Source: Microbispora hainanensis (GTDB taxonomy: Bacteria; Actinomycetota; Actinomycetes; Streptosporangiales; Streptosporangiaceae). From it: a stretch of DNA of 64,000 nucleotides. Under the pieces are notes generated by a model. That model saw only the letters and a list, made by a program, of their open reading frames with translations, did not search any database and had not been told where the DNA came from. The DNA is taken from contig NZ_CP108086.1 of assembly GCF_036186745.1 (NCBI RefSeq), positions 3,534,001-3,598,000 on the forward strand, read 5' to 3'. Positions 8,731-64,000 of the stretch are shown one piece after another. Both the position numbers and the translations under genes were made by a program. Each line of letters begins with the position of its first letter. Positions within the stretch are counted from its first letter, which is position 1.

Positions 8731-8733
8731 GGC

Positions 8734-15994: not shown

Positions 15995-16011
15995 CCTCTG
16001 TCGAGGCCGGA

Positions 16012-17181: not shown

Positions 17182-17190
17182 ACGGCTAAA

Positions 17191-17213: not shown

Positions 17214-17227
17214 AAAGAGGTTTTTCC

Positions 17228-18256: not shown

Positions 18257-18260
18257 CGGC

Positions 18261-18371
18261 GCCGTGGTCAGCGGGTGCCGCCCGTGAGGTGTTCGTGAAC
18301 CTGCCGTGGTCAGCGGGTGCCGTCCGTGAGCCGCTCGTGAACCTGCCGAGGTCAGTGGCTGCCGCCCGTGG
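18261..18371. repeat. 42-bp tandem repeats ending in the stop region of the next gene
   Basis: Units start at 18261, 18303 and 18345 with the core GTGGTCAGCGGGTGCCG. The third, partial unit contains the stop codon (18352-18354, read on the minus strand) and the last codons of the pentapeptide-repeat gene. The 95-bp intergenic region holds nothing else recognisable. Confidence 0.8.
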
Positions 18372-19638: not shown

Positions 19639-20008
19639 GGGGGGCCTCCTGGGGGGAACGCTCCCGAGTCTCCCACGCGGTCTTTAATCCCACTTGCAAT
19701 CCGCTGACCGGCCATCATCCCGGTATTTCCCGGGATGGTGCACCACCCGGCCGAGCCCGCATACGACGAAGGGGCGGACCATCAGGTCCGCCCCTCGTCT
19801 GTGTCCACCGCAAGCGCTCAAGCGCTTCTGCGCCATCGAAAGCGCTCGGGTGCTGTGCCGGAGGCGCTGAGGAGATGTGCCGACACAGAGGTGCCCGGGC
19901 GCTTCCGTGTCCGTCGCGGTGGCGCTCACACGCTTCTGCGGTGGCTGGGAGCGCTGCGGTGCTTCTGCGCCGTGCCGGAAGCCACGCTGTGCCGGAGGCG
20001 CTGAGGCG
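19639..20008. other. 370-bp intergenic region with hairpins and degenerate repeats
   Basis: It holds a hairpin at 19771-19794 (GGGGCGGACC, ATCA, complement), a weaker dyad at about 19713-19738, and many dispersed GCGCTT/AAGCGC elements. The 21-bp element at 19852-19872 recurs at 19986-20006, next to the stop of the TPM gene. No gene supported. Confidence 0.6.
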
Positions 20009-23644: not shown

Positions 23645-24799
23645 ATGCGGGGACCCGGCCTTCTGGCGACCGTGCTGGCTCTGCTTCTCGTGGCGCCGCC
23701 CGCGCCGCCCGCCGAGGCGCGCGTCGCGCCGGCTCGGTGCGCGCCGCGCAAGGGCAGCATGCAGGTGGCCGAGCCGTGGGCGCAGCGCAGGCTCGACCCC
23801 AAGCGGGTGTGGCCGCTCACCAGGGGCGAGGGCGTCACGGTCGCGATCATCGACAGCGGCGTGGACCTGACGCACCCGCAGATCCGGGTGGCCAAAGAGG
23901 TGGACTACACCGGCACGGGCCACCGTGACTGCGTCGGGCACGGCACGGCGGTCGCCGGGATCATCGCCGCCCAGTATCTGAAGGGCGTCCCCTTCCATGG
24001 GGTCGCGCCCGGCGTACGGCTGATCTCGCTCAAGCAGACGAACGAGGAGCGCGGCGACCCGGACACGCTGGCCAGGGCCATCGTGGACGCGGCCGACTTC
24101 GGCGCCGACGTGATCAACGTGTCGATCGACGCCCGCGACGATCCGAAGCTCAGGCAGGCCGTCGCGTACGCGGTCGGCAAGGACGCGGTGATCGTGGCGG
24201 CGGCCGGCAACACGACCGCGGAGGACGGCACGCCGGAGGCCTCCTATCCCGCCGCGTATCCGGATGTGCTCGCCGTGGGGTCGGCCACCCCGGACGGCCG
24301 GCGTGCCGACTTCTCCAACACGGTCACTCCCGTCTCCGTCCTGGGTCCGGGCCAGGACATCACCTCCACCTGGCCAGGGCGGTCGTACATGAGCGGGCTC
24401 GAAGGCACGAGCTTCGCCACGCCGTACGTCGCGGGGGTGGCGGCGCTGGTGCGTGCCCGCCATCCGGAGCTGAACCAGGAGCAGGTGCGCGGGCGCATCA
24501 CCGCCACGGCGGACGGCGGACTGGGGACGGGCACGGGAGCCGGGATGGTCAACCCGATGCTTGCCGTCACCGCGATCCTGCCGATGGAGGTCGGCGGCGC
24601 CCCCGTCATCGCGCCGCCGGCGCCTGCCCCCTTGTCGCAGGACGCGGTGAGCAAACCGGCTCCGGTGGACCAGGAGGCGATCGACCTGGCGCTGACGATC
24701 GCGGCGGCGGCGTTGTGCGCGGTGGGGCTGATCGTGGCCGTACGGGTGTTCGTGCCGATGGGCAGACGGAGAAGGTGGCGTCCCGGCCGTGAAGGTTGA
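23645..24799 (+). CDS. mycP: Mycosin: type VII secretion-associated subtilisin-like serine protease
   Basis: Membrane-anchored subtilase of ESX systems, required for secretion and for processing of some substrates. Signal peptide (residues 1-25), then catalytic triad: Asp in VAIIDSGVDLTHPQ (about 70), His in CVGHGTAVAGIIA (about 99), Ser in EGTSFATPYVAGVAAL (about 256). The oxyanion Asn lies in VAAAGNTTAED. A Pro-rich segment leads to a C-terminal membrane helix (about 350-372) with a basic tail, the usual mycosin topology. It lies 8 kb from the ESX core genes with unrelated genes between, but is the only mycosin in the window. Confidence 0.9.
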   Translation: MRGPGLLATVLALLLVAPPAPPAEARVAPARCAPRKGSMQVAEPWAQRRLDPKRVWPLTRGEGVTVAIIDSGVDLTHPQIRVAKEVDYTGTGHRDCVGHGTAVAGIIAAQYLKGVPFHGVAPGVRLISLKQTNEERGDPDTLARAIVDAADFGADVINVSIDARDDPKLRQAVAYAVGKDAVIVAAAGNTTAEDGTPEASYPAAYPDVLAVGSATPDGRRADFSNTVTPVSVLGPGQDITSTWPGRSYMSGLEGTSFATPYVAGVAALVRARHPELNQEQVRGRITATADGGLGTGTGAGMVNPMLAVTAILPMEVGGAPVIAPPAPAPLSQDAVSKPAPVDQEAIDLALTIAAAALCAVGLIVAVRVFVPMGRRRRWRPGREG

Positions 24800-32910: not shown

Positions 32911-33212
32911 GCCCGCATCGAGGTGGACGTGGCCTCGTTGGCCGTACGGACGTTGTCCTGCACGGTCTCCAGCGCCCGCTCGACGCCTTTCAGCTTGGTC
33001 CTCGCGTCGGCCGCCTCGGAGGTCAGCGCGGAGTAGGCCGTGTCGACGGCCGCGGCCAGCGCCGCCGCGCCGTCCACGTGCCCGAAGTCGGCCGCGCGGG
33101 CGCCGGGCGTCTCGGGCAGGCCGCCGTGCAGGCTCTCGTACTGGCCCCAGGCCTTGCGGACCGCCGTACGGCAGCTTTCGAGCGCCTGGAAGTGGATGTC
33201 GAAACCGGTCAC
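32907..33212 (-). CDS. Small ESX-associated helical protein
   Basis: About 101 residues, GTG 33212 chosen because AAGGAG stands 6 nt upstream; GTG 33236 overlaps the eccC stop but lacks such a site. Helical, with AWGQYESLHGGLPET in the turn where WXG100 proteins carry WXG, and a polar C-terminus. It lies between eccC and the WXG-SLT gene, overlapping the latter by 4 nt, so it is probably co-expressed and may pair with it as a heterodimer partner, as EsxA/EsxB pairs do. No stronger identity can be given. Confidence 0.65.
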   Translation of the reverse strand: MTGFDIHFQALESCRTAVRKAWGQYESLHGGLPETPGARAADFGHVDGAAALAAAVDTAYSALTSEAADARTKLKGVERALETVQDNVRTANEATSTSMRA

Positions 33213-33232
33213 GTGCTGCTCCTTTCCGTCCG

Positions 33233-36200
33233 TCACTCACCGTCCGGAGGAGGCAGGAACGCGGTCTGGGCGAGCCGCGCCCCGAACCTCCTGTCCACGT
33301 GGTAGCCCCGGCCGGGTGGCAGCGGATGCGCCCGGACGTTGCCGAACAGGTAGCCCTCGTCCTTGTTGCCGGAGAGGATGACGGCGGGGCTGGCCATGTC
33401 CTTCAGCTTCTGGATGACCGGGTCGTACATGGCCCGGCCGGCGCCGCCCATCTGGCGCGACAACACCAGGTGGAGCCCGATGTCCCGCGCCTGCGGCAGC
33501 AGGTCCACCAGAGGCAGCAGCGGGTTGGACGAGGTGGCGACCAGGTCGTAGTCGTCCACCACGATGTAGACGTCCGAGCCCTGCCACCAGCTCCGCGTCC
33601 GGAGCTGCTCGGGCGTGAGGTCGGCCGGAGGAAGCCGCTTGAGCAGAGCGCCGCGTACGTCGTTGACCAGCTCGGCGGCGGCGGTGCTCGACGCCGCGTA
33701 GCCGATGCGGTGGGCGGTCGCGGCCGAGTCGAGCAGCGACCTGCGGTAGTCGACGACGATCATCATCGCCTCGTGCGGCTCCCGCCTGGCCACCAGGCCC
33801 TCGGCGATCAGCCGCAGCAGGTTCGACTTGCCGCTCTCGGTGTCGCCCAGGACGACGAAGTGCGGGTCGGCGTCGAAGTCGAGCAGCACGGGCGAGAGTG
33901 TCGCCTCGTCGATGCCGATGGGGATCTTCGGGCCGGTCTCCTCGGGGCTCGGCAACGACGCCGCGGGCAGCACCGGAGGCAGCAGCCGGATCGGCTGCGC
34001 GGGCGGCCCCTGCCACGCCTCCCTGATCGCGTGCACGAGCCCGCGGACGCCCGCCGCGAGGTCTTCGGAGCTCTGCACGCCGTCGATGCGCGGCAGCGCG
34101 GACAGGAAGTGCAGCCCCTCCTTGGTGAGGCCGCGTCCCGGCACGCCCTCGGGGACCGCCAGCGACGCCTTCCTGTTCACCTCGGACTCGTACGCGTCGC
34201 CGAGCTTGAGCTCGACCCTCGTGCCGAACAGGTCGCGGATGCTCGACCGGAACTCCGACCACTTGTTGGTGGCCGCCACCACGTGGATGCCGTAGCCGAG
34301 GCCACGTGCGGCGATGTCGGTGATGACCGGTTCGAGCGACTCGAACTCCTGCCTGAGCGTCAGCCAGCCGTCCACGACCAGGAACACGTCGCCCCAGCCG
34401 TCGCCGTCGCGGCCGGACTCGGCCCGCATCCGCCGGTAGGCCGCGATCGACTCGATGCCGTGCTCGGCGAAGTCCGCCTCGCGCCGCTCCAGGATCGTGG
34501 AGATCTCGGCGACCGTACGGCGCACGCGGTCGGCGTCGAGGCGGCTCGCGACGCCGCCCACGTGGGGCAGCCCCTCCAGTGAGGCCAGGGAGCCGCCGCC
34601 GAAGTCGAGGCAGTAGAACTGCACCTCGCGCGGCGTGTGCATCAGGGCCATGCTCGTGATCAGCGTGCGCAGCACGGTGCTCTTGCCGCTCTGCGTGCCG
34701 CCCGCGACGCCGACGTGGCCCGCGCCGCCCGACAGGTCCAGCCAGTAGGGGTCGCGGCGCTGCTCGAACGGCCGGTCGACGATGCCGACGACCGCGTGGA
34801 GCATCCCCCGGCCGCCCCAGGTCGCGGTGGTCAGGCCGTGTTGCGGGGTGACGGACAGCGGCGGCAGCAGGTGGGCCAGCGTCGGCGGCTCGGCCAGCGG
34901 GGGCAGCCAGATCCGGTGCGCTGGGGGGCCGTGGCCGGTGAGGCGGCCGACGACGACGTCGAGCAGGCTGTGCCGCGGGCCGGCCTGCTCATCGGCGGGT
35001 GCCAGCTCCTTGGGCGTCTCGGTCACCTCGACCGGCGCGAAGGCGGTGCCGTACTCGACCACGTCGCGCATCGGACGGCCCGGCTCGCCGGACGCGGACC
35101 GCGTGGGGTCGGCGTGGTGCGGCCCGGACACGTAGGCGGCCTTGAACCGGGTCATGCCCGTCGTGTCGTACTTCAGGTAGCCGTTGCCCGGCGCGGGCGG
35201 CAGCTCGTACGCGTCGGCGACGCCGAGCACGACCCGGCTCTCCATGGCGGAGAACGTGCGCAGACCGATCCGGTACGACAGGTGGGTGTCGAGGCCGCGC
35301 AGCCTGCCCTCCTCAAGGCGCTGGGAGGCCAGGAGGAGGTGCACGCCGAGCGAGCGGCCGAGCCGTCCGATCATCACGAACAGGTCGATGAACTCCGGCT
35401 TGGCCGTCAGCAGCTCGCTGAACTCGTCGATCACGACGAACAGGGTCGGCATCGGCTTGAGATCGGCGCCCTGCTCCCTGGCCCGCTCGTAGTCGCGCAG
35501 CGAGGCGTAGTTTCCCGCGGCCCGCAGCAGCTCCTGGCGACGCACCATCTCGCCGTGCAGCGCGTCGTGCATGCGGTCGACGAGCGGCAGCTCGTCCTCC
35601 AGGTTGGTGATGACCGCCGACACGTGCGAGAGGGACTCCAGGCCGAGGAACGTCGCGCCGCCCTTGAAGTCGACCAGCACGAAGTTGAGGATCTCGGAGG
35701 AGTGCGTGATGGCCAGGCCGAGGACGAGCGTGCGCAGCAGCTCGCTCTTGCCGGAGCCGGTCGCCCCGATGACCAGGCCGTGCGGCCCCATGCCGCCCTG
35801 CGCCGACTCCTTGATGTCGAGCTCGACGATCCGCCCGTCGGCGCCCAGGCCGATCGGCACCCGCAGCCGGTTGCGCCCGGCGCGGGGCTGCCAGATCACC
35901 GCGGGATCGAGCCGTACGGGGTCGCCCACGCCGAGCAGGTCGGTGAGCGAGGTGTTGACGCCGAGCACGTCCTGCGCCTCGCCCTGGGCGCCCGCGGAGG
36001 CGCGCAGCGGCGCGAGCTGCCGGGCCAGGCCCTCCGCCTGGGGATAACCGAGCCGGTCGGGGTCGCCGAGCCGGTTGCTCGACCGCCGTCCCGTGTGGTC
36101 GATCTTGACCATGTGGAAGCCGTCGGGCTGGACGTCCAGCCGGAGCGTGATCGCCTCGGGCACCGGCCCGGTCACCGCGGACAGGTCGATCACGGTCACG

Positions 36201-47796: not shown

Positions 47797-48096
47797 CTAC
47801 TTGCCGTCGAACATGGCGGCGTTGATGCGCTCGACGTCCTTCATGTTCATGTTCGTGATGTTGATGTTCTTGGCCAGCAGGGACACGATGTCCGCCAGGC
47901 CCTTGGCCTCCTGCTGCCAGATCCGCCGGGTCTGGTCGTAGGCGTCCTTGGCGCTGCCCTGCCAGATCGCGGTCTTGGTGTTGAGCTTGTTCTCCAGGTT
48001 CTCCAGCTCCGTGACCAGCCTGTTGAAGGCGTTCTGGAACTCGGTCTCGCCCGTGTCGAGACCGCTGAAGTTGACCTTTGTGATGTCGAAGTCCAC
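47797..48096 (-). CDS. WXG100 protein, EsxA-like
   Basis: 99 residues with the canonical hairpin turn TAIWQGSAKDAYDQTRRIW and polar helices on both sides; the C-terminal tail has ...KDVERINAAMFDGK. GTG 48096. It forms a pair with the next gene, 39 bp upstream on the same strand, which is the typical arrangement of EsxA and EsxB heterodimers. Such dimers are secreted by EccC and carry the C-terminal secretion signal. Confidence 0.85.
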   Translation of the reverse strand: MDFDITKVNFSGLDTGETEFQNAFNRLVTELENLENKLNTKTAIWQGSAKDAYDQTRRIWQQEAKGLADIVSLLAKNINITNMNMKDVERINAAMFDGK

Positions 48097-48135: not shown

Positions 48136-48486
48136 TCAGCGGCTGTACGAGGCGGGCGGGGCCTGGTTGATGAGCGCCTCGATCTTGTTGATCTCGGCGG
48201 TCACCTGCGTGTTGAACTCGGCGTAGTTCTTGTTGTTCGCCCGGATGCTCTCCGCGAGGGTCTGCAGGCTGCCCAGGATGACGTCCATGCGCTCGTGCCA
48301 CAGCAGGTGCACCTTGTTGAACGCGTGGTGCGACTCACCCTGCCAGTGCACCTTGAGGTTCTCACCGGCGCTGTCCAGGTAACGCTGGATGCCGCGGATG
48401 TTCTCGGCCGCGTCGCCGATCCAGGTGATCGCCTCCTCCAGGTCGTGCCGGCTTACTTGGGCCTGGCTTGCGCCAGAGTGCGACAT
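48136..48486 (-). CDS. WXG100 protein, EsxB-like
   Basis: 116 residues, ATG 48486 behind a GGAGGTG-type site. Turn NLKVHWQGESHHAFNKVHLL; helix 2 ends with a stretch SIRANNKNYAEFNTQV that contains the Y-x-x-[E/D]-like C-terminal secretion pattern. Likely partner of the gene above. Divergent from the secreted protein at 48726 over a 239-bp control region, which is A+T-richer than the genes. Confidence 0.85.
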   Translation of the reverse strand: MSHSGASQAQVSRHDLEEAITWIGDAAENIRGIQRYLDSAGENLKVHWQGESHHAFNKVHLLWHERMDVILGSLQTLAESIRANNKNYAEFNTQVTAEINKIEALINQAPPASYSR

Positions 48487-48725
48487 GGTCACCTCCACTG
48501 ATCCTGTCGAATTCCCCCGACCAGGAGGGTCGGGTGATGACCCAAAAGTCACAGTAATGGATCAGAAGGGGGCTTGCCGGGACTGTCCCAGATTAAGATT
48601 TTGTCACGTCGCTTACGCATTTGTCAGACGGCAGGTTAGGGGTTTCATACGATTTGCGAGCTTTGTGGTGACTCGGCCGTAAGTAGTTGAAAACGCAATC
48701 TGTCGGCAACCGGCTGGAGGGTGCT

Positions 48726-49889: not shown

Positions 49890-50675
49890 ATGGTGAGCAT
49901 CGGCAACGTCGAGATCTGGAACGCGCAGAACAACTTCATCACCGGCGCCGGGCTGGCCGGCACGGCCTCCCTCCTGGAGCCGGCCGCCCGGCCGCTGGCG
50001 GCGGTGCTGCTCGCGATGGTCGCCGACCCCGACGCGATGGCGCGGGGCGCGCGCGAGTGGCGCAACGAGGGAGGCGACGACGCCAACGCGTCACCCGACA
50101 TCGGGCAGCTGCGCACTGATCTCCGCGGGCAGATCACCGCGCTCGAGTCGAACGGGCATCTGAAGGGGCAGATGCTGGCCACGATGAAGCAGAAGTTCGC
50201 CGAGCTGGACACGCAGCTCGACTCGCTGGACAGGGGAATGAAAGGCGTCGGCGACAGCCTCGACTCCGCGGCCCAGATCTACACCGCGGCCAGTTACATC
50301 TCGCTGTCGCTCGGCGGGGCGGCGATGACGCTGGCGTACGCCGGCGCCGCCGCCAAGGGCAACCCGATGACGCTGGCCGTAGTCGAGCCCATGGTGGTAG
50401 CGGTGATCGCCTCCCTGTCGAGGATCGCGGAGCGGGTGTTCGCGATCCTGGGGAGGGTGAGCTTCAAGGTCGCCGCGATCTTCATGGGAGTCTCCTATCT
50501 CACCGCCGGCGTCCAGCAGAAGTTCCCCGGCATGCAGGCCATCACCATGGAGGCGCCCGACTTCGCCAAGGCCAAGGTGGCCTTCGACCCGTCCACCGGA
50601 GGCCTCGCCGAGCCCCTCCCCGACCCCGACGACATGCCGAAGACGCCGTCCTTCATGCCTCCGTTCAGCCTCTGA
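49890..50675 (+). CDS. ESX-associated protein with transmembrane hairpin
   Basis: 261 residues. A helical N-terminal half (RTDLRGQITALESNGHLKGQ, then QKFAELDTQLDSLDRGMKG) is followed by two hydrophobic helices (YISLSLGGAAMTLAYAGAAA; VVAVIASLSRIAERVFAIL). ATG 49890, 3 bp after the previous stop. The stop overlaps the SseB gene (TGATG). No WXG motif; co-operonic with the secreted proteins, so a membrane accessory or late substrate. Confidence 0.6.
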   Translation: MVSIGNVEIWNAQNNFITGAGLAGTASLLEPAARPLAAVLLAMVADPDAMARGAREWRNEGGDDANASPDIGQLRTDLRGQITALESNGHLKGQMLATMKQKFAELDTQLDSLDRGMKGVGDSLDSAAQIYTAASYISLSLGGAAMTLAYAGAAAKGNPMTLAVVEPMVVAVIASLSRIAERVFAILGRVSFKVAAIFMGVSYLTAGVQQKFPGMQAITMEAPDFAKAKVAFDPSTGGLAEPLPDPDDMPKTPSFMPPFSL

Positions 50676-51991
50676 TGGAGTGGGCGGCCAGCGCGTTCGA
50701 GCGGCGGCTCGGGGCGGCGTACGACGCGGGGGACCTGGCGGTCTGCCTGAGCATGCTCAGGGACACCGAGCTGGCGCTGCCCGCGCCCCCGGAGGGAGAC
50801 GCCGCCTGGCCGACGATCACCGCGCCCGACCGGGTGTGGCTGCCCGCGTACACCTCGGTCGAGGCGATGCGGGCGGCCACCGGGTTGTCGCGGGTCAGGA
50901 TCACCTCGCTGGTCGAGCTGGCCGCGGGCTGGCCCGACCCGCGGTGGGGCCTGGCCGTCAACCCTGGCCTGCCGGTGCGCTTCCTGCTCGAACCGGGCAC
51001 CGTGGCCAGGCTCGCGGTCCCCACCCTCGCGCAGGACCGCAGGGCGGAGCCCGAGCCCGCGCTGCCGGTCGTGCAGAAGCCGCTCACGCCCCACGACCTG
51101 CGGTCATATCTCGGCGAGGGGGAGTCGCGCGTCTCGGGCTACTGCCACCACGCGCTCGACGTCGCACACCTGGCGACGCCGGCCGTGCTCGCCGACGCCA
51201 TCGGCCGGGGCGACGACGACGGTCTGCTCAGCCGCGAGGGCTCGCTGTTCCTGCTGCGGTGGCGCACGGTGGGGCTGAACCTCTACCGCACGCCGTACGG
51301 CGGGACCGACGAGGCGGGCATGGCGGCGGTCGCCGGGTGGGTCATCGAGGAGCCGCCGTTCGCCGGAATGGGCCTCGCGCCCAACGCGGACTCCCTTGTC
51401 CGTGAATACAAGGTGGACGCCGTACGGCTGCCGCACGCCTCTGAGATAGTCGAGCTGACCCTGGCCGGCACCGAGGTCGTACGCGCGGTCTACGACGGCG
51501 ACCTCGGCCGCTGGCTGCCGCCCGGCCCGGAACAGCCCCCGGAACAGGCCCTCGCACCGGCACCGGCACCGGCGTCGGCGTCGGCGAGCTCCTATCGGGC
51601 GCGCCGGCGCGGAGCCGAGTTCACGGCGAATCCGGACGCGGGACACGACGGGCTGCTGATCCGGCTGCTGAGCGACGGGCCTGCCGACGGGTTCGAGGAG
51701 CGGGCCCCGGGCCGCTTCGTCCGGCCGGTGCCCGCCGAGGAGTGCGAGGCGGTCTTCCACGTCACGCGGGTGTGCGAGTGGCGCGGCGCCCCCTGCCTCG
51801 TACGCGACGAACGCCCGGGCGAGCTGCTGCTCGAATACACCGGCGGGCGGCTGCCGGTCGCGCGGGCGCTCGGCATGGAGCGGATCGAGCGGGGCGTCCA
51901 CCGGCGGTGGGTGGGCCACGCCGAGGTCAGCGGCCTACGCGAGCACGCCGAGCCTCTCGACCTGGGCTCGGACGAAGGGAGCGGACGTTGA
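50675..51991 (+). CDS. SseB-domain protein of the ESX locus
   Basis: 438 residues. N-terminal domain (about 1-125) has the SseB-type pattern: AFERRLGAAYDAGDLAVCLS, then LPAYTSVEAMRAATG and WGLAVNPGLPVRFLLEPGT. SseB domains of this form occur in actinomycete ESX loci. A linker rich in Pro/Ala (near 290-305) precedes a C-terminal domain (RFVRPVPAEECEAVFHVTRV; CEWRGAPCLVRDERPGELLL). Suggested role: adaptor or chaperone for secretion (inference). Overlap with the previous gene is 1 nt. Confidence 0.75.
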   Translation: MEWAASAFERRLGAAYDAGDLAVCLSMLRDTELALPAPPEGDAAWPTITAPDRVWLPAYTSVEAMRAATGLSRVRITSLVELAAGWPDPRWGLAVNPGLPVRFLLEPGTVARLAVPTLAQDRRAEPEPALPVVQKPLTPHDLRSYLGEGESRVSGYCHHALDVAHLATPAVLADAIGRGDDDGLLSREGSLFLLRWRTVGLNLYRTPYGGTDEAGMAAVAGWVIEEPPFAGMGLAPNADSLVREYKVDAVRLPHASEIVELTLAGTEVVRAVYDGDLGRWLPPGPEQPPEQALAPAPAPASASASSYRARRRGAEFTANPDAGHDGLLIRLLSDGPADGFEERAPGRFVRPVPAEECEAVFHVTRVCEWRGAPCLVRDERPGELLLEYTGGRLPVARALGMERIERGVHRRWVGHAEVSGLREHAEPLDLGSDEGSGR

Positions 51992-52511: not shown

Positions 52512-52611
52512 CGTGTGTGCCTCTCACTTCGGATGCACCGCCCGGAGCGGGCGATGACGCACGTGATGAGCGTGGCCCGGCCCGCTGTGGCCCGTCTTGT
52601 ACGTTCTTAGC

Positions 52612-53466
52612 GTGACGGCTCACCATCGTCCGCCGACGGTCAGTGCCTGGCGGCCGCCGGTGCCCGGCATCGCCGAGGTCTTCCACGCGCACTTCACCGA
52701 CCATGCCTATCCGGCCCACACTCACGACACGTGGGACCTGATGATCCTCGACGACGGCGCGGTCGACTTCGGACTGGACCGTCGCCGGCACGCCGCCGCC
52801 GACCTGTCCGCCGTACTGCTCCTGCCTCCCGGTGTCCGGCATGACGGCAGGACCGTCACCGCCGCGGGCTTCCGCAAGCGCGTGCTCTACCTGGACACCA
52901 CCGTGCTGCCGGAACGTCTCATCGGCAAGGCGGCGGACGCCCCGATCCTGGCCGACCCACTCCTGCGTGACCGGATCCACCGCCTGCATGCCGCTCTCGG
53001 GCATCCGGGAGAGGTGGTCGAGGGCGAATCACGCCTGTTCTTCGTCGCGGAGAGGCTGCGCTTCCACCTTGAGGCGTTCCGGCATCGGGAGCCCGGCCGG
53101 GAGGCGCACCGGCTGGCCGTCGAGCTGCGTGAACTGCTGGACGCCCGGGTCCGGGTGGGGCTGTCGCTGCGGGAGGCGGCCGCCGTCCTCCACTCTCATC
53201 CGACACACCTGATCCGCTGCTTCACGCGGACGTACGGCCTGCCGCCGCACACCTATCTCACGGGCAAGCGCATAGACCTGGCCCGCAGGCTCCTGCTGAG
53301 CGGTCAGCGGCCGGCCGATGTGGCGACGAGCGTGGGATTCCATGACCAGGCGCACCTGAACCGGCACTTCACCCGGCATGTCGGCATCACACCCGCGCGC
53401 TATGCGTCCGGTGGGCACGTGTCGCGTAGGGATGCCCGTCAGGCGTCCCGAGGGAATCGACACTAA
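52612..53466 (+). CDS. AraC-family transcriptional regulator with cupin-type N-terminus
   Basis: 284 residues from GTG 52612. An AraC-ligand cupin half (HAHFTDHAYPAHTHDTWDLM, then PPGVRHDGRTVTAAGF) and a C-terminal double helix-turn-helix: VGLSLREAAAVLHSHPTHLI and QRPADVATSVGFHDQAHLNR, with FTRHVGITPARYAS at the end. Divergent from the small cupin gene over about 100 bp. The usual arrangement for inducible catabolic or detoxification genes. Confidence 0.9.
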   Translation: MTAHHRPPTVSAWRPPVPGIAEVFHAHFTDHAYPAHTHDTWDLMILDDGAVDFGLDRRRHAAADLSAVLLLPPGVRHDGRTVTAAGFRKRVLYLDTTVLPERLIGKAADAPILADPLLRDRIHRLHAALGHPGEVVEGESRLFFVAERLRFHLEAFRHREPGREAHRLAVELRELLDARVRVGLSLREAAAVLHSHPTHLIRCFTRTYGLPPHTYLTGKRIDLARRLLLSGQRPADVATSVGFHDQAHLNRHFTRHVGITPARYASGGHVSRRDARQASRGNRH

Positions 53467-54317: not shown

Positions 54318-57300
54318 ATGACGCACTCCTCCACCACCGGCACGGGCTCCGGTGCCAAGCCGGCCACGACGAACGGCGACGTCACCTCGAACGGCGACGG
54401 GCTGCCCGCGTTCGCCGACGGCGGCGGCTCGGTCGTCGACGTCACCCCCGCCTGGGGCGAGTCGCTGCCCGCCTGGGCCGACGACCTCATCGCCCTGCTC
54501 ACGGCGGGCCAGACCTGGCCGGAGGCGAGCGAGAGCCAGTTGTGGCAGCTCGCCCGCGCACACCGGTCCGCGACCGTGAACGTCGTGCAGTCCGTCGATC
54601 CCGTGGGAGCCGCCGCCGTCGCCGTGCTCAGCGGGATGCAGGGCCCGTCGATGCAGGCGTTCCTGAACCGGCTCGGCGAGCACTACTCGGAGGACACCGG
54701 CCTGCTCAAGGTGGCGAACAACCACTTCGCCTACGGTGCGCAGGCCGACAACTTCGCCCGGGAGACGCAGTATTCGAAGCTGTCGGTCAACGTGGTGTTC
54801 TGGATCGCGCTGATCGCCACGTTCATCGCGCTCGTCGCCGCCTTCTACTCCGCCGGGGCCTCCACCCGGGTCATCGGGCCGATCGCCGCCCGCGCCAGGG
54901 CCGAGACACAGAAGATCCTCGAACGGCTCGCCCTCATGGCCGGCCGCCCCGCCGCGGCCCAGGCGATCGCCAAGGGGACCATGCTGGCCTCGGTCCGGAC
55001 CGGCCTGCTCGGCCGCATCCTCGCCAGCCCCCTGGGCAGAGAGCTCGTCGAGGAGATCGGCGAGGAGGTCGCCGGCGACGCACTCGCCCAGTCCGAGCAG
55101 CGGAAGTCGGGCACCCGCAACGGCTGGGACTGGAAGATGACGAGCGCCACCGCCCTGGGCGCGGCGGGCGGCGCGGGCGTCGGCATGCGGGTCGCGCACC
55201 CGGTCAGCAAGCTGGTCAACAGGACGCCCCTGCTCAGAAGGCTGAACACCGACGCCCCCGGCTTCGGCAACGCGTTCAAGCGCTTCCCCGGCAGGGCGTT
55301 GACGACCGGCCTCACCAACGTGATCGCCTCCCCGGCCGGGAGCATGCTGGCCAACGGGCTCGTGTACGGCCAGTGGGAGCTGCCCGACGGGGAGTCGCTG
55401 GTCGGGGCCGCACTGTCCGGCGCCGGCCGTACGAACACGATCAGCCCGTTCAACCCTGACGTGATCCAGGCGGTCGCCAGTCCGCGTACGGCCCTGGCCT
55501 CGGCGTACGACACCAGCGTCCACACCGATCTGACCCGGGCCCTGTCCACTCCGTCTCCCAATCCCACGGCCGGGCAGCCTTCGGGTGGCGATCCCGGCTC
55601 GGCGAACACGAACACGGCGGGCAGCGGCCAGACCGCGACCGGCGGTGGAACCGCGGGCTCGGGCAGCACGACCACCGCGTCCGTCGCGGGGCACCCCTCC
55701 GGCGGTTCGGCCACCCCATCCGGTGCCGGCCAGACGGCAGCCGCGACGCCGAGCGGATCCGCCCAGACCTCCAGCTCCGCGCCGTCCAGCTCCGCGCCGT
55801 CCGGCCAGGTGACGGCCGCACCCCCCAGCGGCTCCAACCAGCCCTCCACCACCGGCCAGCCCGCCACCGCAGGGTCCTCCGCACAGTCCGGCGTGAGCCC
55901 GACGAACCCCGGCACAGCCACCACCGCCAACGCGGGCGCCACCACCTCTGGCACCTCGGGCTCCAGCACCGCCACGAACGTCACCAACGCGAACGCGACC
56001 GGCGCCACGAGCGCGACCAGCGCCACGAACGCAGGCAACGCGACGAACGCAGGCAACGCGACCAACGCCACGAGCGCGGCGGGTACTACCGCCGCGAATC
56101 CGGGTCAGGGTCAGGGCGCCTCGCCAAGCGCGTCCGGCCCGCAGACCACCGCCAGTTCTGCCCCGGGTGCGAGTGGCACCACCGGTGCGGCGGGCTCGAA
56201 CACCCCGGCCTCCGCAGCGACCCCGAGTGCGAGTACGTCCGGCCCGGCCAACGCGGCAAACACGACGAACGCGGGCAGCGCGAACCCGGGGCAGGCGTCG
56301 GCGGCTGCTTCCGCTGCCTCCCCATCGGCCGGCTCTGTGAGCACGCCCGCCGCGGCCATGCCCGCAGCCCCTGCGGCGACGCAGGCGTCCGCTTCGCCGT
56401 CGGCTGTTGCCTCCGGTGGCACCACGTCATCCAGCACTTCGTCCGCCACTTCGTCGGCCACATCGTCCGCTGCGGCGTCACCGGCCGCCCCGGCCTCCCC
56501 GGCGGCGTCCTCGGGAACGAACAGCGGCAGCGCTTCGGGAAGCACCTCCGCAGCACAGACGGCCGCACAGACGGCCGCACAGACGGCGGCGCAGGCGGCG
56601 GCTCGTACGGCGGTCTCCGACGTGCTGCTCACGATCGCGCCCGACACGCTCTTCCTGCGCGACGGTCGGGGCGCGAGGCTGACCGGCCCCGACGGCAGGC
56701 CGATGCAACTGTCGGGCGAGGACATCAAGACCGTTACGGAGCGGCTGGCGGCGCGTGCCGCCGAGGGCGTGGACACGCCTCGGCTCCATGCGGAGGCGGC
56801 GGCCCTGCTGGGGGCGAGGATCGCCGAGGAGAGCCTGGGACTCCCTGCCGAGGGGGCACTCGACGCGCTCGCCCGGCTCGCCGACGCGACGCCGGACAAC
56901 CGGGGCGCCGCTGCCGAGGTGGCCGGTGAGGTGCTGGAGGACAACCCGCGCGGCTGGCGGCCCGACCGGCTGAGCGACGCGGGGGCCAGGCTGGTGGAGG
57001 AGGCGACGGTCCCGCCGCACGGACCCGAGCACGCTCTGCGCGTCGGCCGCTCCTCCGACACCGCCTCCGACATCGTCCGCCGCGCCGAGGCTCTCGCCGG
57101 GATCACCTCCGCGACCGGCGCGAACGGAACGGCCAACCCGGCGAGCGGAGGCCAAACCGCCGCGCCCGCCTCCAACACCACGCCCGCCTCCAACACCGCC
57201 CCCGGAACCACTGCGCCCGGAGCCACCGCGCCCGGAGCCACTGCGCCCGGAACCACGGCGTCCCCGACCGCGGGAACCGCTCCGGCGACGAACTCCGCCC

Positions 57301-60300
57301 AGACGGCCAACCCCCAAGGCCCCAGGCGGTCCGGACCGCGTACGACCCGGGGGAACGGCCGGGTGACCGCCCGGCCGATCGCGCGGAGCCTGTTCGTCGC
57401 CGACGGCAGGGCGTCGCATCTGGCCGACCTGTCGTCGAGTGAGGCGGAGCAGGGCTTCCTGGCGCTCCAGCCGTCCGACGTGGGCCCGGACGTGACGGCG
57501 CTGGGCCTGGCCGGCGAGCGGACGGTCGTCGTGGACACGGGCCGGCTCGGCGGGCAGCACTTCCGGTACGAGATCGGCCGGGTTCGCGGCGGTCGTCTCG
57601 CCGAGACCAGGGTCAGGTCGGGCACGGCCGAGGACCCCCACGTCGTACGGCTGTCGCCGCGCCTGGCGAACGACATCCTGCCCCGGGTGTGGCTGCACGA
57701 GATCAGCGACGTCTTCCAGCGGATGTCCGGCCCACGGCAGGGCATGGTCCGCTCGTTCCTGAGCCGTACGGCCGAGCCGGACCCCACGGCCTGCGTGACC
57801 GCGCGCTATCGCGAGCACGCGCTCCTGGACAGGCTGTGGCGGGAAGCCCCGGAATCGGAGAGTCCCGCCATCGCGCACGAGATCGAGCAGATCGGACGGG
57901 AGATCGAGAGGCTCGGGCACACCGCCCCCGAGCCCCCCTGGTCGGCGCCCCGGCCACCCACCGTATCCCAGCAGGCCCCCGGCCCCGCGACGCAGACCGC
58001 GAACGCACCAAGCACCACCGGACAAGGCGCGACATCGTCCGATCCGGTGGCGGAGCTGCGCGGGCTGGCCCGCTCCCAGCGGGAGACGCTGACGGACGCC
58101 GCCGGCGAACTGCTCACGGCGGTCAAGGAGAAGATCCGCAGCACCAGGGCGGCCGCGGCCGATGCGAAGAAGGCCGAGGATGCCGCGGAGAAGGCGTCGC
58201 GGGAAGAGGACCTCGGCGCCGGGGAACGCCGCCGCAAGGCGCTGACGGACCGCGACGTCCACCGGGCGAGCGCCGAACGCGCCCGCCACAGCAAGGAGGC
58301 GTACGCGCGGGCGTTGCGGCGGGCGGTCGAGGCGCGCACGAAGTACGAGGCGCTGGAGAACGCCCTCGACGCCCTCCCCGCCAACCGTACGGGCCCGCTG
58401 CCGGCGGATGTCGCCCGGCTGGCCCGGGAGGCGGAGGAGGCCCACAGCGCGTACAAGGAGGCGCACGCGGACGCCCTGCCGCTGCCCGAGGTCCTGTCGG
58501 AGGCGACGCCGGCGGGCCGGCTGCCCCATCTCGAACGGCTCACACGGGTCGTCAACGAGATGCTCGAACGTGCCGGGGTCGACCACCGCTACGCGCCCGA
58601 CGAGCTGTCGCACGTGTTGCGGTCGAACTTCAGGTGGCTGGTGTCGGAGGACGGCGCGCTGCTGCGGGTGGGCCGCGGCACGCGGGGCGAGCTGCGGCTG
58701 CGGCTGAAGGTCACGGACCTGGTCGAGGTCTTCGGCCATCCGGTGCGGCACTCGCAGTCGATGCTCGGCCAGTTGCCGCAGGGCGGACGCTCGGCCTCCG
58801 TCACCGCGAACCGTTCGCTGCGCCTGGCGCCGAGCTTCGACCTCAACACCTTGAGCAAGCCGTTGCAGTACGTGCACTGGGTCGGGCTGCTGATGAAGTT
58901 CGGCGTGCTCAGGGCCGGCGTCACGTTCGGCAGGAGCGAGTCGTTCAACGGCAACGCCTCCGAGTTCGCGCTGGCCGGCGCGGTGCAGGACAACGCGGGC
59001 GAGGCGCTGGTGCTCGACGGGCTCGCCTCGGCCGAGGTCGAGCTGCGCACCGCGAACGGCACCGAGCGGGCGCAGGTGGACAGCGGCGCTCCCGGTGACG
59101 CCCGGAGCCTGCAGGTGTATCTGCCGCACACCCACGCGCAGCGGGGGCCGGCCGAGGTCACCCGGCTCCCCAGGGGCCAGTGGCAGCGGACGCCGCTCCC
59201 CGAGCACGCGGTCACCGGGCTGACCGGGCTGCAGGACCTCGCCGACCGCACCGCCGAGCGGATCGGCCGCCCGGAGATCGGCAGGATGACCCGCGACCAG
59301 ATCGTCACGATCATGACGAAGGAACTGCCCGCCCGGCTCGGCGAGGCGGTCAACGATCCCGAGGGGCTGCACCGTCCGATCACCGTCAACGGCCGGGTGG
59401 TCGGCTACGTGCGGATCAAGAGCGAGGTCGTGATGGACACGGCGCGGCCGGTCGGCACGCCGAGCATCAAGCACCGCCTGGAACGGCTGCGCGTGGGGTT
59501 CTCGGGCGCGTCGGGTTCGCGCTCGGCGGGCCGGTCGGTCGACGTCAAGGGCACCGCGGGAGCCCAGCTTCCCATCGGCGGCCCGCGTCTGCTCGGCCGT
59601 CTCCACCTCGGCGGATTCAAGGCCGCCGCACCGCGGATCACGGCGGGGCTCGGCCGTTCCTGGTCGCGGTCGCGGTCGATGAGCGCGGGCGGCACCGCCA
59701 TCCGGCCGAGCGTGCAGCGCTGGGCCGGCCACACCCAGGCGTACGCGCTGGAGCTGAAGCACACGGTGACGGTGCAGCTCAACACCGACGAGACGCCGCT
59801 TCCCGCCGTGCACGGCGAGAGCACGGGCCTGTTCCGCATGCCCGAGCCGCACGCGTACCGCTACGGCCTGCCGGTCGACCGGGCGGCCGTGGTGAACGCG
59901 GAGGAGGGCAGGCTCAGGGACGACCCGAAACCCGGCGTGCCGAAGGGCCGCCTGGCCCGGCTGCCCGGCTGGGCCCGCGGCACCGGGGCCGGGCCGGGGC
60001 TCGTGCAGGCGAGCGACCGTCCCGAAAGCGTCGAGAACTTCAACGAGGTGCGGGCGAAGGTCGTGGCGCAACTGCGTGCGCGCGGCCTGCTGCCGGGCGA
60101 GGACGGCCGGCTGTCCCGCGACCCGCTGACCCGGGCGAGCCAGATCGCCAACATGATCGAGGTGGCCGAGCAGCTCTCTCCGGCCCGCCTGCAGACCGGC
60201 TATGACCAGGCCATGCAGGACGGCATCATCCTCGACCTGGTGAGCCAGGGCATCGGCCGGGCCAGCCGGCATCTCACGGTGCGCATCCGGCTGGAGCAGT

Positions 60301-63300
60301 CGGGCCGGGAGGATTTCGTCGGCACCAGCGCCGCCGAGGTCGCGGCCGACCTCGACATCTCGTCGGAGACCTCCGGCCGCACGGTCAGCCGGTCGAGCGG
60401 CCGGTCCGTGGACGTCGGCCCCGCCCTCGGCCTTGAGCCGGGCGGGGTCGGCTCGACCGGCGCGGACGCGGGCGTCCACTGGAACAAGGGCAGCGCGGCC
60501 GGCCTGACCGTCAACGACACGGGCAACCTGGTCACGCTGATAGAGGGCACCGCTCCGGCGGCGATCTTCGAGGTTCCGCACACGCTCACCGTGGACCTGA
60601 TCGAGGACGGGAAGATCACGCCGCTGGCCCAGAGCGACGACGTGTGGATGCGGGTGCTGCTGCCCTCCGATCTCCTGCCCGAGGACCGGACCGGGGTCTC
60701 GCCCCGCCACCCGACGTCCCCGGAGGCGCTGAGCCTGGCCACTCTCCTGCACGTGGACGGGACCGGTGTGCTCGACGCCCTGCGATCGGTGCTGCCGAGG
60801 GCGATGCAGCCGGGCTCGGTGTCGTTCCACCACCTCGCCGAGGCGTTCAACACCCGCAGCCTCATCTCCCACCCGGAGTGGCTGCTCGCCGACCCCGCCA
60901 ACCCCGCCACGACGTACGGCACCGCCTTGGCGGTGCGCCCGCGCCGCCTGCGTACGCACCGGGCGTCGGCATGGGTCACGGCCAGGCCGGGCGAGTCGGA
61001 GTTCGTGACCGCGGCCGACCTGGTGATCGGCGACATCAACTTCACGATGGGCGCCTACACCGCACGGACGGAGGCGCGCGGCGGGCGGTCCATGGACGCC
61101 TCGACCGGCGTGAGCGGGGCGCTGCCCCGGGCGCTCGGCGGCAGGGCGGGGCTCGGCGGGTCCGCGGCGGGGAGCACGTCGTCATCGATCGCCGACACGG
61201 CGATCTGGGGCAGGGAACGGCTGGCCATCGACACCGGCAAGCACTACGTGTTCGCGATGAAGGCGGACATCACGGTCTCCGGCGACGAGGCGGGCAACCG
61301 GCGGGCCGACGCCGAGCCGCTGCGGGACAGGACGGTCGTCTACTCCCTCCCCGAGCGCGACGCCCTCGACCTCTACGGCAGGGGCGAGCTCAAGCTGCCC
61401 CTCGACCAGGTGGCCGACGCGGTGACGCGGCTGCTCGACGGCAACCTCCAGCTCGACCCGCGTACGGCCGTGCCGCTGGTGCGCAGATATCTGGCCGACC
61501 GGGCGCTGGCGCGAAGGGAGGGCAACCCCCGGCCCGACCTGGAGCAGAGGCACCCTCGCGACGTGCTCGCCGATCGGCTCGCCAAGGACTTCCCGATGCG
61601 CCTGGCCGCCGAGGGAAACCGGCTCAAGCGGATGCACGACAGGCTGCCGGACCTCGCCAGCCCCGTGGACGTCCCCGACCTCTATCGGGACTCCCTCGGC
61701 GAGAGCACCGTGAAGAAGACCGCCCTCAAGGCCCCGGACGGCACGCCGACCCACGTGCTCGACCAGGTGCTCGGCCAGATCGGCAAGGTCGCGCCCGGTG
61801 CGCTGAAGCGTGACCCCGTCCTGCTGCGCAGCCTGTTCGGCGACTTCGCCGGCAAACGCTGGTGGGGCAAGATCGACGCGATGAGCGGCGAGGAGGGCTT
61901 CGTCAAGACGTACTCGCTCAAGATCGGCCCCCACCTCACCGAGGAGGTCACGGTCAGGATCAGGGCGGTGCTCCACGGCGACGAGGCGAGCTACGGCGGG
62001 AACGTCCACAACTTCGGCCAGATCCTCCAGGACTACACGTACACGCAGGAGGACCGCACCGAGTCGTCGGGCAAGACGTTCGGCGGCAGCGGGAACGCCG
62101 GGGCGGGCCAGGCCGCAGGCAGCGGCGGCAGGGCGGCCGCCACCGACCGCTCGCACACCGGCACGGCCTCCACCGGCACCCAGCGGACCCGCATCCAGCG
62201 CGCGGCGGCGTTCCGCGGCGGGCAGCTCGTCGAGCACCCGGTGACCGTCATGATCGAGGTCGAACGCACGTCGGGCTCCCTGCGCGGCGCCGTGGCCGCG
62301 ACCACCCGCGTCCCCCGGACCAGCCATGTCACGCTGGACGGCACGATGGCCCGGGTGCTGCCGGACGGCATGGTGGCCAAGAAGGGCACGGTCGCCGAGC
62401 GGCCGCCCGCCCCGCCCGACGTGCGGCGGGTCGCGCCGCCCGAGGTCTTCGTGACCGAGCGGCTCAAGGCCGACGGGCTGCTGCGCGCCGTGTTCGACCG
62501 GCTCTCCCGGCAGGACCTGATCGGCGGGGCCGCCGCCATGGAGCACTACGCGGCGCTGGCCAAGACGCTCACCGGTCCCGGGCTCACGACCCGGCTTGAG
62601 CGGATGACCGGCCCCGACGGGCACCGGCTCCTCCGGCTGCCCATGCCGGGCCGGCCGGGCCAGATGGTTGACGTGCGCATCCACGCCGACCTGTCCGAGC
62701 CCGACCCGGTGGCGCTGGGCCTGCAGGACACCGAGCTGGGGCAGGTGGACCGCGAGCAGAACACGGCAGGCACGGCCACCGACCGAGGGCAGATGACGCC
62801 GCTCGGCCGCACGTACAGCGGGGGGAGCGCCGTGGGCGCCGGCGCCGACCTCGGTGCCGGGGACCAGACCGCGCAGTCGAGCTCGGGCAGCGGCGGCAAC
62901 CGCGACGAGACCAGCGTCTTCGAGAAGGGCACCGGGGCCAAGGTGCGGTTCCGGGTCGACTTCGACCTCCGGTTCGAGGTGCGCCAGGTGGCGCGCGACG
63001 GAGCGGAGACGGTGGTGCGGACCGTGGCCGTCCCCCGCGGCGCGACCGGCACGGCCCACCTGATCATGTTCCAGCACGCGCTGGAGGAGATGCTGGCGAA
63101 CCGCGAGGCCGGCGCCGCCCGGCCCCTGTGGGACTTCAACCGGCAGCACGCCACGACACCCGGCGTCTTCTTCTCCCACGACCGCGTGCGCGAGATGGCC
63201 ACGAGACATCCGTCGTACGACCCGGCGGAGCCCGCCACGCTCACCAAGGCGATGGCCGAGGCGCTCAGAGGGCGCACCGGGACGCGTCCCGTGGGCATCG

Positions 63301-64000
63301 TCGCCGACGCCGGCCAGACGGGTTCGACGGCTCTGGTGGAGGAGGCCAGGCTGCTCGCCCGCGACCTCGGCGCCGACGTCCACCTCCATCTCACGCTGCC
63401 CGACGGCACCGTCGAGCGCCACCGCGCCACGCCCGTGGGCGAGCTGTCCGGCAACCCCTTCGCCGAGGCGCTCGGCACGGTGCCGCCCGACCTGGTGGCG
63501 CTGGCCGAGCGGCACGGCCTCGACCTGCGCGACCTGTACGGCGGGCGGCCGAGCGGGTTCGCCGACCGGATCGCCGAACGGCTCGACTCCCTCGGCGTCG
63601 CCCGGCCCGCGCAGGCCGACCCGGGATGGCCGGTGCCCGAGACGGCCGCGGACGGCACCTGGGGCGGCAACCCCTCCATCACCTCGCCCGGCTCCGTGAC
63701 GGCCCAGCCCATCCCGAAGACCGCGTTCGTGGCCGACGGCCGGGCCCCGCACCTGCCCGACCTGTCGCACGCCGAGATCCCCGCGGCCGTCGCCGACCTG
63801 CGCCCGGCGGACTTCGGCCGGGGCCTGCACGCCCTGGGCGCGACGCCGGACGGCAAGGTCATCACCGCGGAGACCGTCAGGTCCGGCGCGGAAGGCTTCC
63901 TCGTGCTGATCGAGGACCCCGGCGGCGGCCGCCCCGCCCGTACGGAACTCGGGTCGGGCGGGCGTCCGAACGTGATCCGGCTGTCGCCGAGGCTGTCCCC
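54318..64000 (+). CDS. Giant modular CpnT-like WXG-type protein (C-terminus beyond window)
   Basis: Open for 3,227 codons from ATG 54318 to the window edge, without a stop in this frame. N-terminal WXG-like domain (about 35-150: QTWPEASESQLWQLARAHRS) and a hydrophobic helix at 157-180 (VNVVFWIALIATFIALVAAF); low-complexity Ala/Ser/Thr/Gly region 410-770; head module near 1023-1121 (LFVADGRASHLADLSSSEAE); coiled-coil region about 1235-1400; then six beta-rich cassettes from 1499 to 2905. The head module begins again at about 3135 (AFVADGRAPHLPDLSHAEIP). Only one in-frame Cys codon was noticed (57792). Likely exported as a large effector with its final domain outside the window. Confidence 0.85.
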   Translation, partial: MTHSSTTGTGSGAKPATTNGDVTSNGDGLPAFADGGGSVVDVTPAWGESLPAWADDLIALLTAGQTWPEASESQLWQLARAHRSATVNVVQSVDPVGAAAVAVLSGMQGPSMQAFLNRLGEHYSEDTGLLKVANNHFAYGAQADNFARETQYSKLSVNVVFWIALIATFIALVAAFYSAGASTRVIGPIAARARAETQKILERLALMAGRPAAAQAIAKGTMLASVRTGLLGRILASPLGRELVEEIGEEVAGDALAQSEQRKSGTRNGWDWKMTSATALGAAGGAGVGMRVAHPVSKLVNRTPLLRRLNTDAPGFGNAFKRFPGRALTTGLTNVIASPAGSMLANGLVYGQWELPDGESLVGAALSGAGRTNTISPFNPDVIQAVASPRTALASAYDTSVHTDLTRALSTPSPNPTAGQPSGGDPGSANTNTAGSGQTATGGGTAGSGSTTTASVAGHPSGGSATPSGAGQTAAATPSGSAQTSSSAPSSSAPSGQVTAAPPSGSNQPSTTGQPATAGSSAQSGVSPTNPGTATTANAGATTSGTSGSSTATNVTNANATGATSATSATNAGNATNAGNATNATSAAGTTAANPGQGQGASPSASGPQTTASSAPGASGTTGAAGSNTPASAATPSASTSGPANAANTTNAGSANPGQASAAASAASPSAGSVSTPAAAMPAAPAATQASASPSAVASGGTTSSSTSSATSSATSSAAASPAAPASPAASSGTNSGSASGSTSAAQTAAQTAAQTAAQAAARTAVSDVLLTIAPDTLFLRDGRGARLTGPDGRPMQLSGEDIKTVTERLAARAAEGVDTPRLHAEAAALLGARIAEESLGLPAEGALDALARLADATPDNRGAAAEVAGEVLEDNPRGWRPDRLSDAGARLVEEATVPPHGPEHALRVGRSSDTASDIVRRAEALAGITSATGANGTANPASGGQTAAPASNTTPASNTAPGTTAPGATAPGATAPGTTASPTAGTAPATNSAQTANPQGPRRSGPRTTRGNGRVTARPIARSLFVADGRASHLADLSSSEAEQGFLALQPSDVGPDVTALGLAGERTVVVDTGRLGGQHFRYEIGRVRGGRLAETRVRSGTAEDPHVVRLSPRLANDILPRVWLHEISDVFQRMSGPRQGMVRSFLSRTAEPDPTACVTARYREHALLDRLWREAPESESPAIAHEIEQIGREIERLGHTAPEPPWSAPRPPTVSQQAPGPATQTANAPSTTGQGATSSDPVAELRGLARSQRETLTDAAGELLTAVKEKIRSTRAAAADAKKAEDAAEKASREEDLGAGERRRKALTDRDVHRASAERARHSKEAYARALRRAVEARTKYEALENALDALPANRTGPLPADVARLAREAEEAHSAYKEAHADALPLPEVLSEATPAGRLPHLERLTRVVNEMLERAGVDHRYAPDELSHVLRSNFRWLVSEDGALLRVGRGTRGELRLRLKVTDLVEVFGHPVRHSQSMLGQLPQGGRSASVTANRSLRLAPSFDLNTLSKPLQYVHWVGLLMKFGVLRAGVTFGRSESFNGNASEFALAGAVQDNAGEALVLDGLASAEVELRTANGTERAQVDSGAPGDARSLQVYLPHTHAQRGPAEVTRLPRGQWQRTPLPEHAVTGLTGLQDLADRTAERIGRPEIGRMTRDQIVTIMTKELPARLGEAVNDPEGLHRPITVNGRVVGYVRIKSEVVMDTARPVGTPSIKHRLERLRVGFSGASGSRSAGRSVDVKGTAGAQLPIGGPRLLGRLHLGGFKAAAPRITAGLGRSWSRSRSMSAGGTAIRPSVQRWAGHTQAYALELKHTVTVQLNTDETPLPAVHGESTGLFRMPEPHAYRYGLPVDRAAVVNAEEGRLRDDPKPGVPKGRLARLPGWARGTGAGPGLVQASDRPESVENFNEVRAKVVAQLRARGLLPGEDGRLSRDPLTRASQIANMIEVAEQLSPARLQTGYDQAMQDGIILDLVSQGIGRASRHLTVRIRLEQSGREDFVGTSAAEVAADLDISSETSGRTVSRSSGRSVDVGPALGLEPGGVGSTGADAGVHWNKGSAAGLTVNDTGNLVTLIEGTAPAAIFEVPHTLTVDLIEDGKITPLAQSDDVWMRVLLPSDLLPEDRTGVSPRHPTSPEALSLATLLHVDGTGVLDALRSVLPRAMQPGSVSFHHLAEAFNTRSLISHPEWLLADPANPATTYGTALAVRPRRLRTHRASAWVTARPGESEFVTAADLVIGDINFTMGAYTARTEARGGRSMDASTGVSGALPRALGGRAGLGGSAAGSTSSSIADTAIWGRERLAIDTGKHYVFAMKADITVSGDEAGNRRADAEPLRDRTVVYSLPERDALDLYGRGELKLPLDQVADAVTRLLDGNLQLDPRTAVPLVRRYLADRALARREGNPRPDLEQRHPRDVLADRLAKDFPMRLAAEGNRLKRMHDRLPDLASPVDVPDLYRDSLGESTVKKTALKAPDGTPTHVLDQVLGQIGKVAPGALKRDPVLLRSLFGDFAGKRWWGKIDAMSGEEGFVKTYSLKIGPHLTEEVTVRIRAVLHGDEASYGGNVHNFGQILQDYTYTQEDRTESSGKTFGGSGNAGAGQAAGSGGRAAATDRSHTGTASTGTQRTRIQRAAAFRGGQLVEHPVTVMIEVERTSGSLRGAVAATTRVPRTSHVTLDGTMARVLPDGMVAKKGTVAERPPAPPDVRRVAPPEVFVTERLKADGLLRAVFDRLSRQDLIGGAAAMEHYAALAKTLTGPGLTTRLERMTGPDGHRLLRLPMPGRPGQMVDVRIHADLSEPDPVALGLQDTELGQVDREQNTAGTATDRGQMTPLGRTYSGGSAVGAGADLGAGDQTAQSSSGSGGNRDETSVFEKGTGAKVRFRVDFDLRFEVRQVARDGAETVVRTVAVPRGATGTAHLIMFQHALEEMLANREAGAARPLWDFNRQHATTPGVFFSHDRVREMATRHPSYDPAEPATLTKAMAEALRGRTGTRPVGIVADAGQTGSTALVEEARLLARDLGADVHLHLTLPDGTVERHRATPVGELSGNPFAEALGTVPPDLVALAERHGLDLRDLYGGRPSGFADRIAERLDSLGVARPAQADPGWPVPETAADGTWGGNPSITSPGSVTAQPIPKTAFVADGRAPHLPDLSHAEIPAAVADLRPADFGRGLHALGATPDGKVITAETVRSGAEGFLVLIEDPGGGRPARTELGSGGRPNVIRLSPRLS

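Follow-up and report, generated by a model that had tools for sequence, protein, structure and literature searches.

The window analysed here, a stretch of 64,000 nucleotides of Microbispora hainanensis (contig NZ_CP108086.1, C1:3534001-3598000, on a single-contig genome of 8.8 Mb), carries most of a gene for a giant protein of 3,371 amino acids (aa), encoded within a type VII secretion (ESX) locus, in which a domain about 195 residues long, here called the FVADGR or D domain, occurs twice (D1 and D2, residues 1016-1209 and 3127-3319), once at either end of a core some 1,900 residues in length. The chances appear evenly balanced that this protein is a CpnT-like carrier exported by the neighbouring ESX machine, with two predicted zincin-like domains bracketing a predicted hairpin core. 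The N-terminal domain of CpnT itself is, judging by database names, a member of the WXG100_2 family.

The giant frame and its internal repeat

The gene starts with an ATG at 54318 of the forward strand and stays open to the window edge over 3,227 codons, as a preliminary description of this DNA had reported, and the WXG-type nature then assigned to the protein is sustained by a Pfam match above the curated cut-off (42.2 bits against 27). The internal repeat is likewise real: FVADGR (residues 1026 and 3137) recurs after 2,111 codons and RLSPRL (residues 1111 and 3221) after 2,110. Judged by its sequence, the giant is a WXG-type protein with a genuine internal repeat. The self-comparison that had been proposed returned only trivial self-matches when the whole protein was used in BLASTP, and the pair emerged when the copies were compared directly, with 44% identity over 192 columns (BLASTP) and a Smith-Waterman score of 391, where 500 shuffles averaged 35 and reached at most 59.

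What did not survive is the plan that had been read into this repeat, namely a protein of more than 5,000 residues built of two super-modules of 2,110 codons each, the second opened by the second copy. The FVADGR domain does repeat, and the similarity continues past residue 3227 to about residue 3319, but nothing beyond this domain is duplicated: D2 is followed by 52 residues and a stop codon, which the downstream genome sequence places at 64431-64433, 433 bases past the edge, and a stop soon after the window had been named beforehand as speaking against the proposal. Among the 12 Microbispora relatives, moreover, no tail after D2 is longer than 500 residues. A protein of that size is ruled out here by the genome sequence, which makes the super-module reading practically impossible. 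The proposal does fit some relatives: four of the 39 described below exceed 5,000 residues, including P0014 with its third copy, and the locus L040 carries five copies. An iterated build persists in the weaker form of about six diverged modules within the core.

One strongly hydrophobic segment (residues about 152-183, by hydropathy) lies inside the WXG100_2 domain, which is the only family that Pfam recognised in residues 1-3227, with no RHS or filamentous haemagglutinin repeats; D2 by itself gave no Pfam family above cut-off, NCBIfam gave no family for the whole giant or for D1 and D2, and no PADLOC model matched the giant or any of three neighbouring genes. The TNT toxin domain of CpnT was not found (Pfam on residues 1-3227 and on D2, NCBIfam on the whole protein), nor was any toxin family at the C terminus (Pfam on residues 1-3227, NCBIfam and PADLOC). 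In the literature searched, nothing on this protein family came up, and no paper joins 'Microbispora' and 'type VII secretion'.

The paired D domains

On its model, the D domain may have a zincin-like fold. Its neighbours in VIA-align are zincin-like (for example selecase, PprI and BepA, metallopeptidases of the zincin, more precisely gluzincin, class), families absent from the output of this tool not being thereby excluded. As in zincin metallopeptidases, an HE-helix is followed by a second helix with a Glu 38 residues after the motif His. Both residues are present in all 76 family copies that cover most of the model (partial copies were not counted), the later Glu sitting in helix 141-159 of the model as the predicted third ligand, and the residue beside the His is Glu in 72 copies and Asp in the other four, all of them D2. 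Unlike those enzymes, most copies read HExxD, an invariant Cys stands seven residues before the later Glu, and a Foldseek search with the D model gave no significant match. Asp occupies the second ligand position in 57 of the 76 copies, and HExxH is found in 14, the two copies of the giant, both HEISD, not being among them.

The HExxD of the giant makes a binding or clamp role of its D1 and D2 more probable than peptidase activity. Were they active variant metallopeptidases, they could cut the giant at both core ends and free the core after export; the constancy of the His, its neighbouring Glu and the later Glu would fit, as would the zincin-like neighbours and the processing peptidases ahead of toxin tips that are among the features described for polymorphic toxins (PMC3482391). 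With Asp at the second ligand position in most copies, and in place of the catalytic Glu in four D2 copies, such activity seems rather unlikely. Distant copies in two loci of another family (L041 and L043, frames of 938 and 1,060 residues), with HELGE and no Cys in the stretch shown, hint that the D domain could be part of a larger superfamily. The label 'lonely Cys domain' was discarded, since the phrase was not found in the literature searched and NCBIfam gave no such match.

The giant contains exactly two Cys, Cys1159 in D1 and Cys3268 in D2, at equivalent positions, whereas about 18 would be expected from the composition of 25 neighbouring genes (Poisson P 1.8e-6; since Cys may be avoided in exported proteins, this figure does not serve to test for a disulfide). 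In 34 of the 39 relatives the D1-to-D2 stretch also has a single Cys in each copy and no other in the part that separates them, and in 16 of these relatives (two being partial proteins) these are the only Cys of the protein. The exceptions are P0019, with three extra between the copies, P0020 and P0022, with none in a partial D1 and one in D2, P0037, with none in D1 and one between, and P0039, which lacks the domain. In further loci, some of which encode the same proteins, 21 of 23 copies have one Cys. A Cys1159-Cys3268 disulfide closing the core into a loop would account for the scarcity of Cys and for the pattern in relatives; yet the Cys of D2 is kept in P0020 and P0022, which weakens an obligate bridge, and the third copy of P0014 carries one too. 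Since the D2 Cys persists in those two proteins, a role inside each domain explains the pattern better, and the bridge appears distinctly improbable.

A tree was built from 49 of the 76 copies (14 proteins, mostly near-copies, were left out), and in it D1 and D2 do not form two separate groups. Instead, they join each other within Microbispora (88/91), P0017 (99/96) and P0013 (90/82), as well as in a group of mostly long-tailed proteins headed by P0014 and P0019 (97/94). Constraining all D1 together costs 66.5 log units (approximately unbiased test, p 0.000893), by which simple vertical inheritance of one ancient duplication is rejected under the model used, a rejection that the long branches of P0036, P0013 and P0017 weaken. 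Recent gene conversion was also discarded, the DNA of nine loci having no long identical run between copies (longest 19 nucleotides), while P0009 shows at the protein level a D1-like patch within D2. Repeated duplication, homogenisation or matched selection are possible causes. The lone paired Cys, together with this lineage-wise likeness, suggest that D1 and D2 may have to match each other.

The core between the domains

Profile comparison and modelling suggest about six diverged modules in the core (H0 to H5, Table 1), which is predicted to be rich in long beta-hairpins, the hairpin tips having low confidence in the model. In the profile comparison, a control pair of H3 and a helical slice scored 73% because the slices overlap by 11 residues; the charged region of residues 1215-1380 showed no similarity to the modules, and the core profile had no match among PDB sequences up to E 1. 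The very long strands with Gly/Ser-rich tips, set between helices, recall the beta-pore formers perforin and pleurotolysin and the outer-membrane barrel CymA, although in the giant all strands belong to one chain, and the likeness is weak, involves in part low-confidence segments and comes with no sequence similarity to solved structures.

Relatives and distribution

A search of about 5.8 billion proteins, scored on the 2,293 candidates with most words in common, yielded 39 relatives. The 12 nearest proteins, like the 8 nearest loci, are from Microbispora, and more distant relatives come from Nonomuraea, Sphaerisporangium and one strain named Actinomadura. At least two D-profile matches, starting 2,068-2,495 residues apart, were found in 38 of them, the D1 match being limited to the C-terminal part in P0020, P0022 and P0037; P0039 has none. 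As far as the sequences tell, the D domain is a pair of bookends round the core. Additional copies also occur: P0014 (5,339 aa) has a complete third one and P0015 a partial one, the locus L040 has five over two neighbouring, overlapping giant frames (1042-14694 and 12549-20000), and L044 (1-8067) has two in direct succession, of which the second lacks HE and Cys.

More than 500 residues follow D2 in 12 of the 38 relatives and at most 500 in the other 26. PF15644, a toxin glutamine deamidase by the name of its source, is recorded in five of the 39, and in one relative from Nonomuraea the tail of 1,181 residues gave no Pfam match. A constant N-terminal part with differing C-terminal regions, a trait of polymorphic toxins, is thus found in the family, the giant described here lacking such a region. 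Where the Microbispora giants end in an acidic GWEPPDDED tail, ten other relatives (P0024, P0027, P0030-P0034 and P0036-P0038) have a CxC(x5)CxC cluster within their C-terminal 30-140 residues.

With alignment A1 (17 chosen sequences; A2 has 8) as the query, domain matches were found in 10 of 15 genomes of the genus, 54 of 250 from the family and 6 of 296 from the class. Apart from two matches in frames of 91 and 409 residues, the family search hit frames of 2,099-4,551 residues throughout; three faint matches fall in two other families, in frames of 938-1,485 residues. The single record in the plasmid collection is the 11.9 Mb replicon of N. gerenzanensis.

Gene neighbourhood

The giant is surrounded by genes for EccC, EccD, EccB, an FtsK-type ATPase and a pair of WXG100 proteins (Table 1). 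Directly upstream, the WXG100-like gene overlaps the YbaB gene by 4 nucleotides and ends 2 nucleotides before the ATG of the giant, and these two genes precede the giant in all 11 relatives' loci examined. EccB lies downstream in seven of the 11, three of the other four loci ending too early, and SseB is present in four, many loci having too little upstream sequence to reveal it. N. gerenzanensis, whose genes were placed by tblastn, shares the order SseB, YbaB, WXG-like, giant, 170-aa and 179-aa, whereas the long-tailed Nonomuraea locus L021 has a different gene downstream of the giant.

The 170-aa protein, with CxCG and CxxCG motifs and no Pfam or PADLOC match, has 408 homologues, the 120 listed coming mostly from Nonomuraea, Sphaerisporangium, Streptosporangium and metagenomes. 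It is a conserved partner, perhaps a chaperone; together with its 179-aa paralogue, it is conserved downstream and not tail-specific. The subtilase may be the mycosin of this ESX machine (MycP, a putative name), and the fusion of WXG100 and lytic transglycosylase (SLT) domains is perhaps a wall-cutting type VII substrate. Just past the ESX genes lie genes of Tad-pilus type (T2SSE, T2SSF and TadE; 74399-78627, L010:900-5128).

Table 1. Features of the giant gene and its surroundings, in window positions (numbering continues past 64,000 into the downstream sequence); pLDDT, predicted local distance difference test
Feature	Position	Strand	Evidence and remarks
Subtilase	23645..24799	+	PF00082 E 1.9e-48
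WXG100 domain fused to SLT domain	31792-33240	-	beside EccC
EccC-like ATPase, 1,326 aa	33233..37213	-	PF01580 E 1.6e-93; three FtsK/SpoIIIE stretches
EccD, 514 aa	37236..38780	+	PF19053 E 4.2e-91, PF08817
WXG100 gene pair	47797-48096 and 48136-48552	-	PF06013 E 3.6e-10 and 4.1e-11
SseB-like	50675-51991
AraC-type regulator	52597-53466
YbaB/EbfC-family gene, 141 aa	53543..53968	+	PF02575 E 1.8e-13; first of upstream pair
WXG100-like small gene, 116 aa	53965..54315	+	WG, no W-x-G; PF25547 E 0.11, below cut-off
Giant gene, part in window	54318..64000	+	frame and downstream sequence; stop 64431-64433
WXG100_2 (CpnT-like N-terminal) domain	54501..54866	+	residues 62-183; PF25547 E 1e-10
Low-complexity linker rich in Ala/Ser/Thr/Gly/Asn	55515..56603	+	residues about 400-762; sequence
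D1	57363..57944	+	residues 1016-1209; HEISD, Cys1159, R..E helix
Charged region, probably helical	57960..58457	+	residues about 1215-1380; sequence reading
Module H0 (predicted)	58605..59147	+	residues about 1430-1610; model mostly poor, pLDDT 34-54 in middle
Module H1 (predicted)	59325..59897	+	residues about 1670-1860; model strands of 41 and 49 residues
Module H2 (predicted)	60180..60707	+	residues about 1955-2130; model strands of 26 and 24 residues and neighbours
Module H3 (predicted)	60870..61397	+	residues about 2185-2360; model strands of 45 and 13 plus 24 residues
Module H4 (predicted)	61755..62417	+	residues about 2480-2700; by profile similarity to H2
Module H5 (predicted)	62565..63107	+	residues about 2750-2930; weakest, by profile similarity
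D2	63696..64000, on to 64274	+	residues 3127-3319; HEISD, Cys3268
170-aa gene	64433-64945 (L009:10934-11446)		ATG overlaps stop of giant by one base
179-aa gene	64956-65495		diverged paralogue of 170-aa gene
EccB	65497-66918
FtsK-type ATPase	67836-72593		sub-threshold FHA-like stretch

Proposed function

From gene order and homology we infer that the N-terminal WXG100-like part and its small WXG100-like partner would be recognised by the EccB/C/D machine, followed by export of the giant. Once exported, the core would be able, thanks to the low-complexity linker, to extend to an adjacent membrane, and the predicted hairpin modules would act there as a beta-sheet rod or pore, with D1 and D2 either clasping the two core ends to each other or binding and processing peptides next to the core. 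In about one third of the relatives an extra C-terminal region follows D2, a predicted toxin in five, and there D2 occupies the place of the releasing peptidase of other polymorphic toxins. With 52 residues after D2, the present form could be a version that lacks a toxin and serves as a pore only or in adhesion, whether pore, adhesin or stalk. The architecture, the order of genes and the conserved pairing of the D domains are shown by the sequences; export, the pore or rod and any killing function are inferred.

Several observations weigh against an exported, CpnT-like carrier. The YxxxD/E signal, a motif named for ESX-1 in PMC7810871, is absent from residues 1-300 of the giant (one occurs at 350) and from the WXG100-like partner, being found within the first 300 residues in 10 of 40 family members; there is no toxin tip here, the end after D2 is short in most relatives, and the tips of the core model have low confidence. 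The last three would suit a structural protein or adhesin of the cell or spore surface, with a stiff, beta-rich stalk as the core, D1 and D2 as binding domains and, in the short forms, neither pore nor toxin delivery. HExxD in both copies and a conserved neighbour gene in the place of variable immunity genes point the same way. However, PF15644 occurs in relatives with the same D bracket, and the N-terminal domain with its preceding WXG100-like gene recalls CpnT, so that a purely surface role is a real possibility, though a somewhat improbable one.

The giant shares with CpnT, described within the EsxE/EsxF-CpnT-IFT operon of M. tuberculosis in PMC7810871, an N terminus of the WXG100_2 kind, putative WXG100-family gene(s) directly upstream, a C-terminal toxin in some relatives and the ESX link. 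It differs in its 3,371 residues, in the long core between twin domains, in the lack of a toxin domain, and in a locus with YbaB in the upstream pair and ESX genes next door. As in the polymorphic toxins described by Zhang et al. 2012 (PMC3482391), there is a constant N-terminal trafficking part, an internal peptidase-like domain and, in relatives, a C-terminal toxin; in the giant, however, the peptidase-like domain comes as a constant pair that encloses a long core, Pfam finds no RHS or filamentous haemagglutinin repeats, and a toxin is missing. Repeats of peptidase-like domains without catalytic residues are among the cases that the same paper describes, for caspase-like domains.

A bolder proposal, which we consider unlikely, is that six fused modules with some 12 long strands form a single-chain beta-barrel, delivered by type VII secretion and clamped by twin zincin-derived domains with a lone Cys that evolve in concert. 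If true, one polypeptide would do what perforin or aerolysin achieve by assembling many subunits. Bookends that have to match each other would predict that two points lying 2,100 residues from one another are in contact. For the question of how very large type VII substrates pass across envelopes to target membranes, the conserved cassette of YbaB, WXG100-like protein, giant and 170-aa partner, with its constant core between twin domains, offers a defined object of study.
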